Shown here: positions 6,857-60,289 of the stretch, piece after piece
Layout: every line of letters starts with the position of its first letter
How positions within the stretch are numbered: the first letter of the stretch is position 1
Source: Enterococcus malodoratus ATCC 43197
Lineage (GTDB): Bacteria > Bacillota > Bacilli > Lactobacillales > Enterococcaceae
DNA: 64,000 nt
Assembly (NCBI RefSeq): GCF_000407185.1
Contig: NZ_KE136481.1
Span: 907,636-971,635 of the forward strand
Direction of reading: 5' to 3'
Notes under the pieces: model-generated
What the model saw: only the letters and a program-made list of their open reading frames with translations
What the model was told of the DNA's origin: nothing
Databases searched by the model: none
Made by a program: the position numbers and the translations under genes

Positions 6857-7585
6857 GTGCCAATTGGTATTATCATTAATTCATTTTCGATTATTTTAGG
6901 CGGCATCTTAGGCGGGTTTCTTGGTCACCTGCTGTCGGAAGATTTCAAAAAACAGATCACCTTGATCTTTGGGGTTTGTTCAATGGCGATGGGGATTCCC
7001 AGCATCAGTCAGATGGCGAATATGCCTGCGGTGATTTTGGCAATTATTTTAGGAACCTCTTTAGGACTGATTTTCCACTTCAATGAAAAGATCAATTTTG
7101 CAGCAGCCTTGATGCAGCGGCCTATTGCGAAGTTTCCTCAGCAAGAATTGACGCTTTCCCATGAAGAGTTCATGAGTACTTTAGTCACGATCATCGTGCT
7201 TTTTTGTGCCAGCGGAACAGGGATTTTCGGCAGCTTAACCGAGGGAATGACAGGCGACCATACGATTCTGATCGCAAAGTCGATCTTAGATTTTTTCACC
7301 GCCGCCATCTTTGCCTGCAATATTGGTTATGTCGTGGCGGTCATTGCGATACCGCAGTTCATTGTTTTCTTCTGTCTATTCTTGATTGCCGCAGTCATTT
7401 TCCCTTTGACTACTCCTTCGATGATTTTAGACTTTAAAGCCTGTGGCGGTTTTTTAATGCTGGCGACAGGGTTTCGAATGATCAAAGTCAAAATGTTTCC
7501 TACTGCTGACATGATCCCAGCAATGCTTTTAGTCATGCCGATCAGTTGGATCTGGACCACTTGGATCGTACCGTTATTAGGCTAA
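6857..7585 (+). CDS. DUF554 family membrane protein
   Basis: A hydrophobic 242-aa protein of the DUF554 (YdfK/YqgA) family with about six to seven membrane segments and glycine-rich turns, for example GGILGGFLG near the N-terminus. Function is unknown; the family is often described as a possible transporter. A longer frame opens at 6848, but that GTG lies inside the ribosome site AAGGAG (6843-6848). The GTG at 6857 sits 8 nt after it and starts the first hydrophobic helix, so it is preferred. It is monocistronic and ends at a bidirectional terminator shared with plsC. Confidence 0.85.
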   Translation: MPIGIIINSFSIILGGILGGFLGHLLSEDFKKQITLIFGVCSMAMGIPSISQMANMPAVILAIILGTSLGLIFHFNEKINFAAALMQRPIAKFPQQELTLSHEEFMSTLVTIIVLFCASGTGIFGSLTEGMTGDHTILIAKSILDFFTAAIFACNIGYVVAVIAIPQFIVFFCLFLIAAVIFPLTTPSMILDFKACGGFLMLATGFRMIKVKMFPTADMIPAMLLVMPISWIWTTWIVPLLG

Positions 7586-7586
7586 A

Positions 7587-7618
7587 CAAAAAAACGCTGA
7601 ATTACTCAGCGTTTTTTT
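7587..7618. terminator. Bidirectional intrinsic terminator (DUF554 / plsC)
   Basis: A 7-bp stem ACGCTGA/TCAGCGT (7594-7600 with 7606-7612) is flanked by an A-run on the left and a T-run on the right, so it can terminate both convergent genes. The plsC stop codon lies inside the loop. Confidence 0.85.
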
Positions 7619-8231
7619 CTTTGGCAACATATTTAAAATTCGGGTTAATCTCACGATCTAATTGATCAAAAGCACCTTGCACTCGGCGTTCTACTTCGGC
7701 TAAACCAGCCTTATCCATCTTTTTGATGTCTGAAACATCGATTGGATCACCAAAACGAATAATTACCGGTGTCCGCTTAAACAATTGTGAAAATTTTGTC
7801 GGCCCCTGATAAACAGAGGGTACGATCGGCTTCTTCGATAAACGAGAAATCAAAGCCATCCCGCCCTTTAATTCTGATGAGTGACGAGTTCCGCTTGGAA
7901 ACATGATCAAACTTTTGTCAGATTCTTTTAACATTCTAACTGGACGTTTCACCACGCTTGGTCCCGGCTTGTCACGGTCAACAGGAAAGGCGTTCAAGTG
8001 GACCAATATAAAACGCAGAATTGGATTTTTGAATAGTTCTGCTTTTGCCAAAAAACTAAATTGCTTTGGCGATGCTCCTAAAGCCATATAAACCGGGTCC
8101 CACCAAGTTCGATGCGGAGCAACTAAGATATAATTTCCTTCAGGGATTTTCTCTTTATTTTGATATTGAGCATTGCCGTTGACGACAGCTAAGATCCCTC
8201 GAGCGATAACGCGAATAAATTTAAAAAACAT
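7602..8231 (-). CDS. plsC: 1-acyl-sn-glycerol-3-phosphate acyltransferase
   Basis: Adds the second acyl chain to lysophosphatidic acid at the inner membrane face to make phosphatidic acid. The catalytic HX4D is at H40-D45 (HRTWWD), and the acceptor-binding block FPSGTR is at residues 111-116 (usually FPEGTR, so one conservative change). Length 209 aa is typical. It ends inside the bidirectional terminator and is divergent from the tRNA methyltransferase gene. Confidence 0.92.
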   Translation of the reverse strand: MFFKFIRVIARGILAVVNGNAQYQNKEKIPEGNYILVAPHRTWWDPVYMALGASPKQFSFLAKAELFKNPILRFILVHLNAFPVDRDKPGPSVVKRPVRMLKESDKSLIMFPSGTRHSSELKGGMALISRLSKKPIVPSVYQGPTKFSQLFKRTPVIIRFGDPIDVSDIKKMDKAGLAEVERRVQGAFDQLDREINPNFKYVAKEKNAE

Positions 8232-8306
8232 TTTTTCTTCCTTTCAGTTAACTAACTAAACGTAGTATAATACAACGGTATGATTTTTTTAAGGGGGCAA
8301 TCGAAA

Positions 8307-51080: not shown

Positions 51081-51442
51081 TCCTATTTCATCTCAAAGAA
51101 TTAATTTTTCTTACGTAAAAATTAGTTCTATTTTCAAGCCGTATACCATTCCACTAGAACGTTCACTCTGTATATGCGTTTCTTTTTTTACTTGTTTTTC
51201 TTCTGATAAAACTGCAAAAAGTGGAACTGACATCCTATTTCATCTCAAAGAATTAATTTTTCTTACGTAAAAATTAGTTCTATTTTCAAGCCGTATACCA
51301 TTCCACTAGATCTTTTACTCTGTATATGCGTTTCTTTTTTACTTACTTTCCTCCCGATGAAACTGTAAGTAGTGGAACTGGCATCCTATTTCATCTCAAA
51401 GAATTAATTTTCCTTACGTAAAATTAGTTCTATTTTCAAACG
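51081..51442 (-). repeat. 152-bp tandem repeat array (about 2.4 copies) between pduK and pduJ
   Basis: Three copies start at about 51081, 51233 and 51384 (period 151-152 bp), the third truncated. Each contains GAGATGAAATAGGA, a hairpin AATTAATTTTT/AAAAATTAGTT, AATGGTATACGGCTTGAAAATAG and AACGCATATACAGAGT. The unit resembles repeat copies A and B elsewhere in the window. Adjacent copies are about 90% identical. No gene lies in the 386-bp gap. Confidence 0.9.
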
Positions 51443-55474: not shown

Positions 55475-57136
55475 TTAAATGTCTTTCGGATTGATTGCTT
55501 TAGGGATCGCTTTTACTTTTTCCCACTCGGCCCCATCTAATCGGTACCCAGTTCCCGGTCCAGCATAATCATTCTTGTCATTGACGGCAGAGATCACATT
55601 CCAATCTGCATCAAAGATTGAAGACGTTTGTAGGAAGTCTCCCGCTACACGTTGTTTCAAAAGATTGAGCAAGCTTGTTGCGACATCTTCAAAACCACTT
55701 TCTGACAAGCCCTTAACAAGATCCAAACCTGTCTTACCTTGAGTTAATAATTCTTGTGCTGCTTTGATATCTTGCACCATGTCACGTTCCGGCATGTCTT
55801 GTGATCCTCGAGCATAGGTTGCTGCTTCAACTTCTTCATCAGTGATCGTTGGCAAGCCTAGCTTATCAAACAGCCCTTGCAAAGCTCTCGCAGCCTTATT
55901 ACGAACTGCCACAACATCCTCTTCACTAACCGGCCGTAATCCGCCATCAACTTTCAAATCCCGTTGAATGACATTGTAATCATCGAAATCATCAGCATCA
56001 AAGTTGGAACCGGCAAACATGTTGTCATAGTTTGGCGTTGCTGAATAACCTGATGAAATGAAGTCTGTACCTGGTAAGAATTGCATCAGCAAACGAGCCG
56101 TTCTCCGAATGTCTGAATGTGAGAAGGTTTGGTCATTTCCTGAAGCCACTTCCAAATCAAGCAGCATCGCAATCAAGTTTTCAGCTAAAATAGCTCGAAT
56201 CCCTGAAGGAACTGCCCCTGGAACTCCGATACAGCTGATCGAACCATTTTGCAAGCCTTGAACTCCGGCTGCTTTTGTTAAATAGATACAACGTGTTTCA
56301 AGGTAGAGCATTGATTTGCCTTCTGCGTATCCCATTTGTACTTCTGATCCAGTCCCTGAAGTGAAACGCATCTTCAATCCGCGAGAGGCATAACAAGAAG
56401 CTAAGAATCCTTTAGACCAAGGCGTATCATCGCCATCGGTAAATACTTGTTCCGTACCATAAACAGAGATTGTTTCGGCATAAGCGGTAAAGCCGCGCAT
56501 TCCTAAATCAAGCTCTGTTGCTTCTTCTAATGAACACTGTGTCAATACGCCTGGACGTCCAGTTTGCGAACCAACCATGATCGCCACTGCGTTGAATGGC
56601 GCATAACGAGCAACGGCTACCGTTGTTTCCTGTTCATCAAAGCCGCGCAAAGCACCTTCCGCCGCATCCGCTGCGATCTGTACAGGATTATCGCGAACGT
56701 TGGTTACGTGAGATTGAGTCGTTGGACGACGACGAGCCCGCATTTTTTGAACCGCCATCATCATTTCAACCACGTTCATATATCCGACTACTTCATTTAA
56801 TTTCCCTGGTGTTGCCGCAGTCGTCAATTGAACGATTTCTTCTCTTGAAATATTTGGATCAACGATTTTATTCGCTAACTCTTTCGAAGGAATAGCCATT
56901 ACTTCTTCGGTGCGAGTTAAATCAATTCCGTATTGAGCGATATATGAATCAATCAAATCAAAGTCAGCTTTGTCTTTCCCATCAAGTTCAACCACTTCAC
57001 CATTAACGATCTTGATGCTTGGTTTAGGGTCATTCGGACTTTGCATCGCAATTAATCCTTCTTCTACCCATTCATCTACGAAACCATCTTGATTGACCGG
57101 TCTTTTTTCTAGTTCTTCAAATCGTTTTGATTTCAT
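55475..57136 (-). CDS. pduC: PduC, diol dehydratase large subunit
   Basis: A 553-aa TIM-barrel catalytic subunit converting 1,2-propanediol to propionaldehyde (or glycerol to 3-hydroxypropionaldehyde) through an adenosyl radical. It starts RFEELEKRPVNQDGFV and contains the strongly conserved TNVRDNPVQIAADAAEGALRGF, QCSLEEATELDLGMRGFTAYAET, SGTGSEVQMGYAEGKSMLYLE and GSISCIGVPGAVPSGIRAI. Diol and glycerol dehydratases are too similar to separate by eye; the pdu context favours diol. Confidence 0.97.
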   Translation of the reverse strand: MKSKRFEELEKRPVNQDGFVDEWVEEGLIAMQSPNDPKPSIKIVNGEVVELDGKDKADFDLIDSYIAQYGIDLTRTEEVMAIPSKELANKIVDPNISREEIVQLTTAATPGKLNEVVGYMNVVEMMMAVQKMRARRRPTTQSHVTNVRDNPVQIAADAAEGALRGFDEQETTVAVARYAPFNAVAIMVGSQTGRPGVLTQCSLEEATELDLGMRGFTAYAETISVYGTEQVFTDGDDTPWSKGFLASCYASRGLKMRFTSGTGSEVQMGYAEGKSMLYLETRCIYLTKAAGVQGLQNGSISCIGVPGAVPSGIRAILAENLIAMLLDLEVASGNDQTFSHSDIRRTARLLMQFLPGTDFISSGYSATPNYDNMFAGSNFDADDFDDYNVIQRDLKVDGGLRPVSEEDVVAVRNKAARALQGLFDKLGLPTITDEEVEAATYARGSQDMPERDMVQDIKAAQELLTQGKTGLDLVKGLSESGFEDVATSLLNLLKQRVAGDFLQTSSIFDADWNVISAVNDKNDYAGPGTGYRLDGAEWEKVKAIPKAINPKDI

Positions 57137-57980: not shown

Positions 57981-58259
57981 CTATTCTGACTTAGGGAGCA
58001 AGCCTTCAACTTCAGTATGTGGACGTGGAATAACATAATTAGAAACAACTTCTCCTACTGAGTTAGCCGCAGAAACACCTGCATCAACGGCTGCTTTTAC
58101 CGCACCTACATCTCCTCGTACCATCACTGTCACTAATCCAGAACCAATTTTTTCCGTTCCAATTAAGGAAACATTCGCAGCTTTTACCATCGCGTCAGCT
58201 GCTTCAATAGCACCAATCAACCCCCTAGTTTCAATCATTCCTAACGCTTCCTGTTGCAT
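57981..58259 (-). CDS. pduA: PduA, hexameric BMC shell protein
   Basis: A 92-aa BMC-domain protein ([63 protein letters not shown]) forming hexamers with a central pore used for propanediol entry. First gene of the main pdu run. AGGAGG precedes the ATG. A promoter, a terminator-like leader hairpin and a cre-like site lie upstream. Confidence 0.96.
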
Positions 58260-58310: not shown

Positions 58311-58342
58311 AAAAAAGATAGAACAAATTTGTCCTATCTTTT
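58311..58342 (-). terminator. Terminator-like hairpin in the pduA leader
   Basis: AAAAGATAGGACAAA pairs with TTTGTTCTATCTTTT on the minus strand (one G-U) and is followed by a T-run. It starts about 12 nt after the predicted pduA transcription start, so it looks like an attenuator. Confidence 0.55.
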
Positions 58343-58389: not shown

Positions 58390-58542
58390 GACAACGTCAA
58401 ATAAACCTTAATCAAAGTTCAACTAAGGTCAGAAAATAGTAATATTTTGTCTTCTGCTGGTCAAAATAATGTTATTGGTCTAAACGAGATTTAAAATAAT
58501 TTTGTGTTCTGGTAAAATGATAGTTGACTAGGAGGCGCTTAC

Positions 58543-59439
58543 ATGGAAAATATCAGTACATTGAATTCGCAAAGTTCCTTGCAACTTTCCAAAACAATCC
58601 AAGATTTTGCTCTTGCAGCCGATTTTGGGTCGGTACTTGTTGATATACATGGAAAGGAAACTTCCGACCTATATAACTTCTCTCCTTTTTGTCAGTTAAT
58701 GCGTTCAAAGCCAGAATTCAAATCTCTTTGCCAAAAGTGTGATGCATTCGGAGGCTTAGAAGCCTCAAAAAATGGTAACCCTTGTATTTACCGTTGCCAT
58801 GCTGGACTCACAGATATTTCATTACCTATTATTCGCAATAATCAATTGATTGGATTTGCATTATTTGGTCAAGTAGAGATGAATGACGACTCGCAAAATT
58901 CATTTACCCGCATCCATCCGATCGTTACTCCTTGGGAATCTCCACAGGAATTACGTCAAGCCAGAAAGAAAATTAAGACCGTCAATACAACTCAAATTGA
59001 ATCTGCCGCCGCTTTACTCAAAACGATTGGCGATTATCACTTCAATGACGATGACCCGCGGGATCAAATTAAATTTAACTTTCACTCAAGTAAAAAAGAA
59101 ACTAAAGATTCTATCAACTCCAAAAATGATGAAATTCGCAAAGCCATTTCTTACATTGATACGAACTTAACGACCAATTTAACACTTGAAGACGTCGCTA
59201 ACCATGTGTATCTTAGTCAATTCTATTTCAGCCGTCTATTCAAAAAGGAAATCGGTGTCAGCTTCATTACCTATTTGAATAGACAACGAATCGAACAAGC
59301 AAAGGTTCTATTGGCACAATCGAATTTAAGCATTAAATCCATTTCGCAAAATATTGGTTATTCCCAAACGAGCTATTTTTGTAAAATATTCAAAGAACTT
59401 GTCGGCATGACTCCGGTTAACTATAGAAAAGAAAAATAA
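58543..59439 (+). CDS. pocR: PocR, AraC-family activator of the pdu operon
   Basis: A 298-aa regulator. The N-terminal PocR sensory domain (about 15-175) has its Cys-rich signature in LCQKCDAFGGLEASKNGNPCIYRCHAGLTDISLPI, and two C-terminal AraC helix-turn-helix motifs (about 195-298) read LTLEDVANHVYLSQFYFSRLFKKEIG and SIKSISQNIGYSQTSYFCKIFKELVGMTP. It is divergent from pduA and is expected to activate pdu genes when propanediol is present. A B12 riboswitch transcript on the opposite strand converges on its 3' end and may control it by antisense RNA. Confidence 0.93.
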   Translation: MENISTLNSQSSLQLSKTIQDFALAADFGSVLVDIHGKETSDLYNFSPFCQLMRSKPEFKSLCQKCDAFGGLEASKNGNPCIYRCHAGLTDISLPIIRNNQLIGFALFGQVEMNDDSQNSFTRIHPIVTPWESPQELRQARKKIKTVNTTQIESAAALLKTIGDYHFNDDDPRDQIKFNFHSSKKETKDSINSKNDEIRKAISYIDTNLTTNLTLEDVANHVYLSQFYFSRLFKKEIGVSFITYLNRQRIEQAKVLLAQSNLSIKSISQNIGYSQTSYFCKIFKELVGMTPVNYRKEK

Positions 59440-59444
59440 TTCAT

Positions 59445-59476
59445 TAAGAGCAGCCGAATTACGGCTGTTCTTTTAT
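59445..59476 (+). terminator. Intrinsic terminator of pocR
   Basis: Stem AGAGCAGCCG/CGGCTGTTCT (one G-U) followed by TTTTATT. On the opposite strand there is no T-run, so it would not stop antisense read-through. Confidence 0.7.
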
Positions 59477-59477
59477 T

Positions 59478-59577
59478 GCCACAGCTAACTCATTTAAAAA
59501 AACTTTTTGTAGCCATGCGATTCTACTGGCGTTATTGTCCATGATTTTTTTTCGCTGCGAAAAGTGGAGCTCGCAAA
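59478..59577 (-). repeat. Interspersed intergenic repeat, copy C
   Basis: After the riboswitch terminator T-tract on the minus strand: GCGAGCTCCACTTTTCGCAGCG, later AGTAGAATCGCATGGCTAC and finally GAGTTAGCTGTGGC. It shares the two ends and the spacing logic of copy A (GCGAGTTC...GCAG; AGCAGAATCGTATGCGTAC; GAGCTAGCGGTCAC), but the internal hairpin is degenerate. Confidence 0.45.
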
Positions 59578-59608
59578 AAAAGTGAGGTGTCTGAAAGACA
59601 CCTCACCA
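59574..59608 (-). terminator. Terminator of the B12 riboswitch transcript
   Basis: Stem GTGAGGTGTC/GACACCTCAC (59582-59591 with 59597-59606), followed on the minus strand by seven T. It lies about 65 nt beyond the B12 box, as expected for a ligand-controlled terminator. Confidence 0.85.
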
Positions 59609-59664
59609 AATAAACGTCACTTTGACTATTCATGGTGAAATAATTCTCCCAATACAATTACCTC

Positions 59665-59812
59665 AGCAAAAGGGCAGGTATCCTGACTTCGCTTCATCCT
59701 CCATCTCGCCTTCCCGAAAGTGGCTACTTGAGATTTCGTCTGCTTATACAGTAGAAAGGGTCTGCCAAGGATTCTCACCTTGTTCCCTGTTCCAAATGCT
59801 TCTATTCAATTC
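59665..59812 (-). promoter_or_regulatory. Cobalamin (AdoCbl-type) riboswitch, antisense-facing pocR
   Basis: The minus strand contains the conserved core GGGAACAAGGTGAGAATCCTTGGCAGACCC and further on the B12 box GTCAGGATACCTGCC (59673-59687), spaced as in cobalamin riboswitches. It has its own promoter upstream and a terminator downstream. No minus-strand gene follows before pocR, which is on the plus strand, so the output is either a short RNA or an RNA antisense to pocR. Confidence 0.9.
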
Positions 59813-59823
59813 TTTACGAGTAC

Positions 59824-59852
59824 ATAATAACGCAGAATGTATCCGCTGTCAA
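59824..59852 (-). promoter_or_regulatory. Near-consensus promoter of the B12 riboswitch RNA
   Basis: On the minus strand TTGACA (-35, 59847-59852), exactly 17 nt, then TATTAT (-10, 59824-59829). The -35 contains the pduV stop codon. This supports an independent transcript starting near 59816. Confidence 0.75.
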
Positions 59853-60289
59853 AATTCATCTGTCAACAGAAAATTTTTTAGGCCTGATATTCCTTCCTGA
59901 TTTACTGTGGACAATGAGAAAACTTTTTGTGCTCCGGCCAGACGCAATCTCTTCTGTGCCAGATCATAATCTGCCTCAGTATGCTCCAAATCGGTCTTCG
60001 TAATAATGCCGATCATCGGTTTGGTGAAACGTGATGAAAAACATGGCGGAAAATAATTCTGTCGGCTCGTGATGCTTTGGACCACCGCAATACAATCAGC
60101 TCCAACGGCTGAACTCACTAATGCATTATAATAAAAACGGTTCTCCATAAATTCACCCGGCGTATCAATCACATTATCTGTAAAATAGACCTGCTGTGTT
60201 TTATGGTATTTAATTTCCCAATCATTCAGAAGCTGCATCAACGTTGTTTTTCCTGATCCGGTTTCGCCAATAAAAATGACTCGTTTCAT
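59849..60289 (-). CDS. pduV: PduV, EutP/PduV-type small GTPase
   Basis: A 146-aa P-loop protein with Walker A/G1 GETGSGKTT (residues 8-16), G3-like DTPGEF and G4-like TKTDLEHTE. PduV is thought to localise to the compartment surface and affect its movement. It starts 2 bp after pduU. Its stop codon lies within the -35 of the riboswitch promoter. Confidence 0.92.
   Translation of the reverse strand: MKRVIFIGETGSGKTTLMQLLNDWEIKYHKTQQVYFTDNVIDTPGEFMENRFYYNALVSSAVGADCIAVVQSITSRQNYFPPCFSSRFTKPMIGIITKTDLEHTEADYDLAQKRLRLAGAQKVFSLSTVNQEGISGLKNFLLTDEF

Follow-up and report, generated by a model that had tools for sequence, protein, structure and literature searches.

A cobalamin riboswitch antisense to pocR in Enterococcus malodoratus: predicted control of the pdu activator and recurrence of the layout in Bacilli

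At the 3′ end of pocR in Enterococcus malodoratus ATCC 43197, on the strand opposite to the gene, lies a cobalamin riboswitch with a promoter and a terminator of its own. The best explanation of this arrangement, and one in which we place considerable confidence, is a riboswitch-controlled antisense RNA of the AspocR type. The parts of such a circuit, their order, their pairing, and their conservation are seen in the sequences described below. The window analysed here is a stretch of 64,000 nucleotides from a genome of 4.62 Mb, referred to as G000. AspocR (Rli39) is the experimentally shown circuit of Listeria monocytogenes (Mellin et al. 2013, as described in reviews), for which RNAs of 230 nt and 1,400 nt, partial repression, and action in trans are reported. 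As far as those reviews describe it, the window resembles that circuit in having a cobalamin riboswitch antisense at the 3′ end of pocR and a divergent pdu operon.

The pocR locus and its riboswitch

The pocR gene (58543–59439, plus strand) encodes an AraC-type activator of 298 amino acids with the PF10114 PocR sensory domain and an AraC helix-turn-helix, and it is the predicted antisense target; its product shares 94% identity with PocR from both E. hulanensis and Enterococcus sp. MJM16, and the genome is of the E. avium kind. The divergent pdu operon is headed by a pduA-like BMC shell gene (57981–58259, minus strand). This gene, pduB, and pduC (55475–57136, minus strand), which encodes the large subunit of the B12-dependent diol/glycerol dehydratase, are located on the riboswitch strand past pocR; a pduV-like gene (59849–60289, minus strand), a pduU-like gene, and ackA are found on the same strand upstream of the riboswitch. 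Minus-strand TGTAAGCGCC / TGTAAGTGCT motifs, which we take to resemble CcpA cre sites, occur near 58540 and 58290, by the pocR ribosome-binding site and ahead of pduA. Elsewhere in the window, a T-box leader (RF00230; 15783–15990, minus strand) barely exceeds its gathering score (93.5 against 93).

RF00174 is matched over its full length (model positions 1–189 of 189) at 59656–59829 on the minus strand, with 67.9 bits and an E-value of 1.3e-14, against a gathering score of 31.5 bits. An earlier note on this DNA had recognised a cobalamin riboswitch on this strand and had placed its aptamer at 59665–59812, bounds that proved slightly short. The promoter that it had described as near-consensus, TTGACA-17-TATTAT, is of the sigma-A type (59824–59852, minus strand; predicted start near 59817) and matches the consensus at 11 of 12 positions, a quality reached once when the 95-nt region was dinucleotide-shuffled 400 times. 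The terminator of that account is also present, as part of the expression platform: an intrinsic terminator with a T run (59574–59607, minus strand) whose 12-bp stem at 59607–59581 is followed by seven T residues. The platform further contains a P13-like hairpin with an ATTGGGA loop (59636–59665, minus strand) and an antiterminator 5′ strand (59634–59642, minus strand) that pairs with 59607–59599. Because the 3′ strand of the P13-like hairpin overlaps the antiterminator 5′ strand, the antiterminator and the combination of P13 with the terminator are mutually exclusive. With the 3′ arm of the terminator omitted, the leader folds as the antiterminator (−17.8 kcal/mol); with this arm included, it folds as the P13-like hairpin plus the terminator (−30.8, z −4.6, 0 of 200 shuffles as good). 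The fold of the whole leader was no better than its shuffles (z −1.28, 17 of 200 as good).

These helices were followed in an alignment of nine enterococcal sequences, 8 of them distinct, from the E. avium group, E. mundtii, and G310. P13 is paired in 97.5% of 80 cells (slid controls 39–60%), the antiterminator in 98.6% of 72 cells (33–57%), and the terminator in 99.0% of 96 cells (39–67%). Two-sided changes are found at two pairs of P13, none of the antiterminator, and one of the terminator, and with so few of them the support for the helices is conservation and not strong covariation. In the E. avium group, the terminator 5′ arm and its upstream partner form a duplex that 1–5% of 300 mononucleotide shuffles equal, and this duplex is weaker in E. 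mundtii (11% as good) and G310 (5%). No uniform antiterminator pairing emerged from this duplex test in lineages B, C, and D (defined below), and the antitermination mechanism is therefore argued for the window's lineage only. Across 8 aligned enterococcal loci, promoter, aptamer, and platform are conserved and the adjoining spacer is not; the layout, the promoter, the terminator, and the antiterminator are all kept in the nearest relatives. The spacer of the window holds CCACTTTT(C/T)GCAG at 59555, and a further copy lies in the pdu operon at 51212, both on the minus strand; similar copies occur in the spacer of G010, and the element is possibly a small dispersed repeat.

It had also been claimed that no sense gene follows the riboswitch, and this holds: the next feature is pocR, which is encoded on the other strand and entered from its 3′ end, and no minus-strand ORF of at least 60 amino acids lies between the two. 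Minus-strand ORFs of 41 and 50 amino acids in this gap overlap the terminator or the aptamer. A hidden sense gene was considered and rejected; ORFs of at least 40 amino acids do occur between riboswitch and pocR in some loci, but they vary from locus to locus, many of them overlap the aptamer or pocR, and the spacer is unconserved. The three other RF00174 matches in G000, one of them below the cut-off, all stand ahead of sense genes. Going by their translations, these are an ABC permease gene, a gene for an ECF S component accompanied by a cobD-like gene, and a DUF4430-like gene accompanied by one for an ECF component. The gap also contains a hairpin read by eye as the terminator of pocR mRNA (59446–59474, plus strand), which is absent from the computed terminator list and has a weak minus-strand T run; similar hairpins are present in the alignment of relatives. 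The antisense polymerase would have to pass through this hairpin, and some of it might stop there.

At the other end of pocR, before pduA, lies a terminator-like hairpin (58313–58342, minus strand) whose stability was reached by 0 of 60 shuffles, the opposite strand being without such a site. When 330 nt past the pocR start were scanned, a hairpin with a T run was found on the riboswitch strand in 19 of 23 loci, at −12.7 to −17.3 kcal/mol (18 of the 19 at 0/60 shuffles, one at 1/60); in E. mundtii it is preserved with altered pairs. In the scan of 23 loci the hairpin is weak in G105 and was not found in Listeria G081, G735, and G372; G735 has the riboswitch without the hairpin, and G372 has neither. 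The window differs from AspocR in this respect, as the hairpin is absent in all 15 Listeria loci (G081 and 14 further), which carry the riboswitch. The hairpin at 58342–58313 would probably form the 3′ end of the predicted long antisense RNA, of about 1.5 kb, and would shield pdu from read-through. Instead of a terminator, it may be a DNA operator, its centre (ACAA..TGT) being alike across clades by eye, a reading that is disfavoured by the T run, which lies on the riboswitch strand. When the other strand of the 19 loci was scanned, nothing was found in 13, weak sites (−1.1 to −4.5) in four, and strong ones in two (G010 and G019).

From these elements we infer transcription, B12 binding, read-through, and pocR repression in the genome of E. 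malodoratus. The constitutive-looking promoter (59852–59824) would make a leader bearing the cobalamin aptamer. Binding of B12 would leave the antiterminator strand sequestered in the P13 hairpin, the terminator at 59607–59581 would fold, and only an RNA of some 240 nt (about 243 predicted, against the 230 nt given for Listeria in reviews) would be made, which stops short of the pocR mRNA. Without B12, 59642–59634 would pair with the terminator 5′ arm and the polymerase would continue, yielding an RNA antisense to all of pocR (about 1,510 nt predicted, against 1,400 nt given for Listeria) that probably stops at 58342–58313, ahead of the pdu promoter. PocR would be lowered by this RNA or by the act of transcribing it, and pdu would therefore be induced only when propanediol and the cofactor are both present.

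Survey of pocR loci and competing explanations

PocR homologues were gathered by protein search and not via the riboswitch. After duplicates were dropped, together with G233 and G425, in which a contig end truncates the 3′ flank, the set comprised 37 loci, to be read as at least that many, as part of the PocR searches scored at most 6 candidates per genome; from one search 7 of 50 loci were taken, the other 43 being weak or mostly HTH-only matches. The 37 loci span Enterococcus, its relatives, Listeria, and one other order of Bacilli. They consist of 23 with neighbours tabulated and 14 further with 1.5-kb flanks, which come from a genus with rliH matches and were taken as Listeria. In 35 of the 37, an RF00174 riboswitch directly adjoins the 3′ end of pocR and is antisense to it, which indicates that the layout is not accidental and supports the earlier reading of it as AspocR-like. 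The exceptions are G372, in whose pocR locus no riboswitch was found, and G215a, one of two G215 loci, in which the riboswitch lies upstream of pduU-pduV. In G215a these two genes lie between the riboswitch and antisense pocR, so that read-through would make pduU-pduV mRNA and then antisense pocR, an excludon-like order that starts from a sense-type riboswitch (L095:7223-8421).

A terminator after the aptamer was found by scan in 35 of 36 riboswitch-bearing loci, and in the one missed, G215a, a hairpin and T run are visible by eye. The promoter matches 10–11 of 12 consensus positions in all 11 loci of lineages A and B, with 0–22 of 400 shuffles as good; G215a, outside these 11, has 9 of 12. 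The near-consensus promoter of the window contrasts with AspocR, since the match was not above chance in G081, the one Listeria locus tested, nor in G735, G017, G014, and G187. None of five PocR-like regulators from outside pdu clusters, four of them with tabulated neighbours, has an antisense cobalamin riboswitch (RF00174), and two of the five precede a sense RF01482 riboswitch. PocR-like paralogues of 43–52% identity (L092:8229-9110, L093:9010-9885, and L094:9432-10301), likewise without an antisense riboswitch, adjoin ECF-transporter-like genes and the ornithine cluster. The pocR gene is interrupted in the assembly of E. raffinosus DSM 5633 (L011:6001-6893), where the riboswitch still scores 77 bits.

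Several other explanations of the locus were weighed. The riboswitch could be an orphan, left behind by the loss or relocation of its sense gene, and the related sense-type riboswitch of G215, placed upstream of pduU-pduV and then antisense pocR, speaks for such a history; the conservation of promoter, aptamer, and platform in the eight enterococcal loci beside an unconserved spacer, as well as the recurrence of the antisense placement in 35 of 37 loci, make it improbable. Distal sense control, in which read-through would serve the pdu operon past pocR, is more doubtful still. The pduA-like gene does lie on the riboswitch strand, about 280 nt past the pocR start, and no hairpin intervenes in Listeria and G735, but in 19 of 23 loci, that of the window among them, a terminator-like hairpin intervenes, and the logic would run backwards, with B12 turning off B12-dependent enzymes. 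The least credible of all, to be given hardly any weight, is a protein sponge, with the read-through RNA titrating an ANTAR antiterminator such as EutV. In published accounts, EutX of E. faecalis and Rli55 of Listeria do combine a B12 riboswitch with a constitutive promoter, and they share with the window a B12 riboswitch that governs a noncoding RNA gating the regulator of a B12-dependent pathway; however, those RNAs sequester EutV, whereas no ANTAR domain was detected in G000 by a search that gives one each in G002 and G016, and in the 23 tabulated loci the riboswitch, where present, adjoins pocR and pdu genes.

A further explanation keeps the riboswitch-controlled antisense transcription and supposes that it acts mainly by polymerase collision in cis and not by RNA pairing. 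In its favour, the transcription units are convergent and the whole gene is overlapped, but Listeria AspocR acts in trans according to reviews; we regard this as a secondary possibility, to be taken seriously and still rather unlikely.

Lineage of the window aptamer

For the AspocR-type antisense RNA, which we prefer, the lineage of the aptamer bears on what can be carried over from Listeria. The loci were typed by eye, ahead of the topology test, into lineage A (that of the window), B (G010 and G006), C (Listeria and G735), and D. In the PocR and PduC trees, A joins B (100/100 and 100/97), apart from C and D. The riboswitch tree drew on 13 genomes, from which 51 of 55 matches were taken (four weak ones left out); the dropping of 4 more weak matches and the addition of two further pocR riboswitches gave 49 rows. 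In this tree, the antisense riboswitches of B, C, and D, together with the LysR case described below, form one clade (12 rows, 97/89), and the window's riboswitch type falls among ordinary sense riboswitches (31 rows, 87/93). The signature ..CTTTCTACTGTA.. is common to the window aptamer and all three other G000 riboswitches.

A single clade of all antisense riboswitches was rejected (42 rows, with G215a left out, the LysR ones included, and long branches dropped), this constraint costing 22 log units with the platform (AU p 0.010) and 20 with the aptamer core only (AU p 0.023). A stricter test, with all 15 pocR riboswitches in one clade, gave p 0.0002, 3e-7, and 0.0016 on three data sets, and is harsher than fair because the LysR riboswitches nest among them. 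The weak points of riboswitch trees are short sequences, long branches, and gene conversion among the riboswitches of one genome.

Simple descent from the Listeria pocR riboswitch is rejected by these trees. The window aptamer, of another lineage than that of AspocR, is 52% identical to the Listeria one, and its function is therefore not transferable by descent; on the evidence of sequence, the window element would work like AspocR without being the same RNA by descent. As the window aptamer groups with sense riboswitches and not with the other antisense ones, the antisense slot seems to have been refilled in its lineage by an ordinary sense-type riboswitch. The earlier note had called the layout conserved or convergent, and both words apply, since the slot is conserved across Bacilli and the aptamer comes from a different riboswitch lineage. 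The window also differs from AspocR loci in that rliH (RF01460), matched in 15 of 15 Listeria loci, is not matched in the window at the gathering score.

LysR-facing riboswitches and related systems

In G002 (E. avium), a short cobalamin riboswitch lies between Or-4 (NF040744), the last gene of a D-ornithine 4,5-aminomutase operon (OraE NF040743, OrtA, OrtB, Ord), and a LysR regulator gene on the opposite strand. The same order of Or-4, riboswitch, and lysR is found in G010 and G215 by ORF reading only. It was the riboswitches that led to these three ornithine loci. When 395 genomes of the order were searched by LysR, nine loci were obtained, of which the four closest (G215 again, G127, G181, and G119) have Or-4, the riboswitch, and antisense lysR, so that the design is present in six genomes in total. 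In the five more distant loci no riboswitch faces LysR, although one of them, G332, has a riboswitch further along on the other strand. The LysR-facing riboswitches are located at L183:7172-7298 (plus strand, with lysR at 7414-8301 on the minus strand), L184:8908-9033 (minus strand), and L185:8774-8904 (plus strand), and also in L187, L188, and L189. OraE carries a B12-binding domain, and from the position of the lysR gene we infer that this LysR controls the ornithine aminomutase operon. In G000, no such LysR was found at E 1e-60 among 6 of its 21 candidates.

A broader reading of these observations is that B12-dependent catabolic pathways of Bacilli are gated at their regulators by noncoding RNAs under B12-riboswitch control, that the pocR slot, being under selection, was refilled by a sense-type riboswitch in the window's lineage, and that the design arose at, or spread to, the LysR gene by the D-ornithine 4,5-aminomutase operon, a generalisation to which we give an even chance. 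If it is true, AspocR would be no Listeria curiosity and would represent the usual cofactor check before activator synthesis in the pdu loci of these bacteria. The aptamer swap at an unchanged position would provide natural replicates in which the requirements of an antisense riboswitch could be tested, and for the ornithine loci a second circuit of equally inverted logic is predicted, with B12 turning genes on via an OFF riboswitch.

A computational survey of antisense-acting riboswitches (Serrano-Gutierrez and Merino 2023, PMC9943018) predicts them for the pocR genes of further Listeria and of Vagococcus carniphilus, and likewise describes, in its main text, riboswitches 3′ of and antisense to the regulated gene. 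That main text names Enterococcaceae and does not contain the words Enterococcus, LysR, or ornithine. The SAM riboswitch antisense to ubiG-mccBA of Clostridium acetobutylicum is similar, in published accounts, in that the ligand ends an antisense RNA and relieves the sense gene; it differs in its ligand and in its target, which is an enzyme operon and not a regulator. In our literature search, which mostly did not extend to subscription journals, no title or abstract opening reported an Enterococcus pocR riboswitch or an ornithine/LysR riboswitch. Within the literature searched, the Enterococcus lineages with an antisense pocR riboswitch, the grouping of the window aptamer with sense riboswitches, the terminator-like hairpin on the pduA side, and the LysR-facing design in six genomes are apparently new.

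Two minor observations concern other riboswitches of these genomes. In G002, an RF01482 riboswitch (L101:10278-10427, plus strand) is flanked by adenosyltransferase-like and dehydrogenase-like genes in a eut-like region, with a gene for a EutV-like ANTAR protein downstream, and it looks like EutX. Tandem cobalamin riboswitches, two before one sense gene, are found in L154 and L165 (G215:C1:1676337-1676744).
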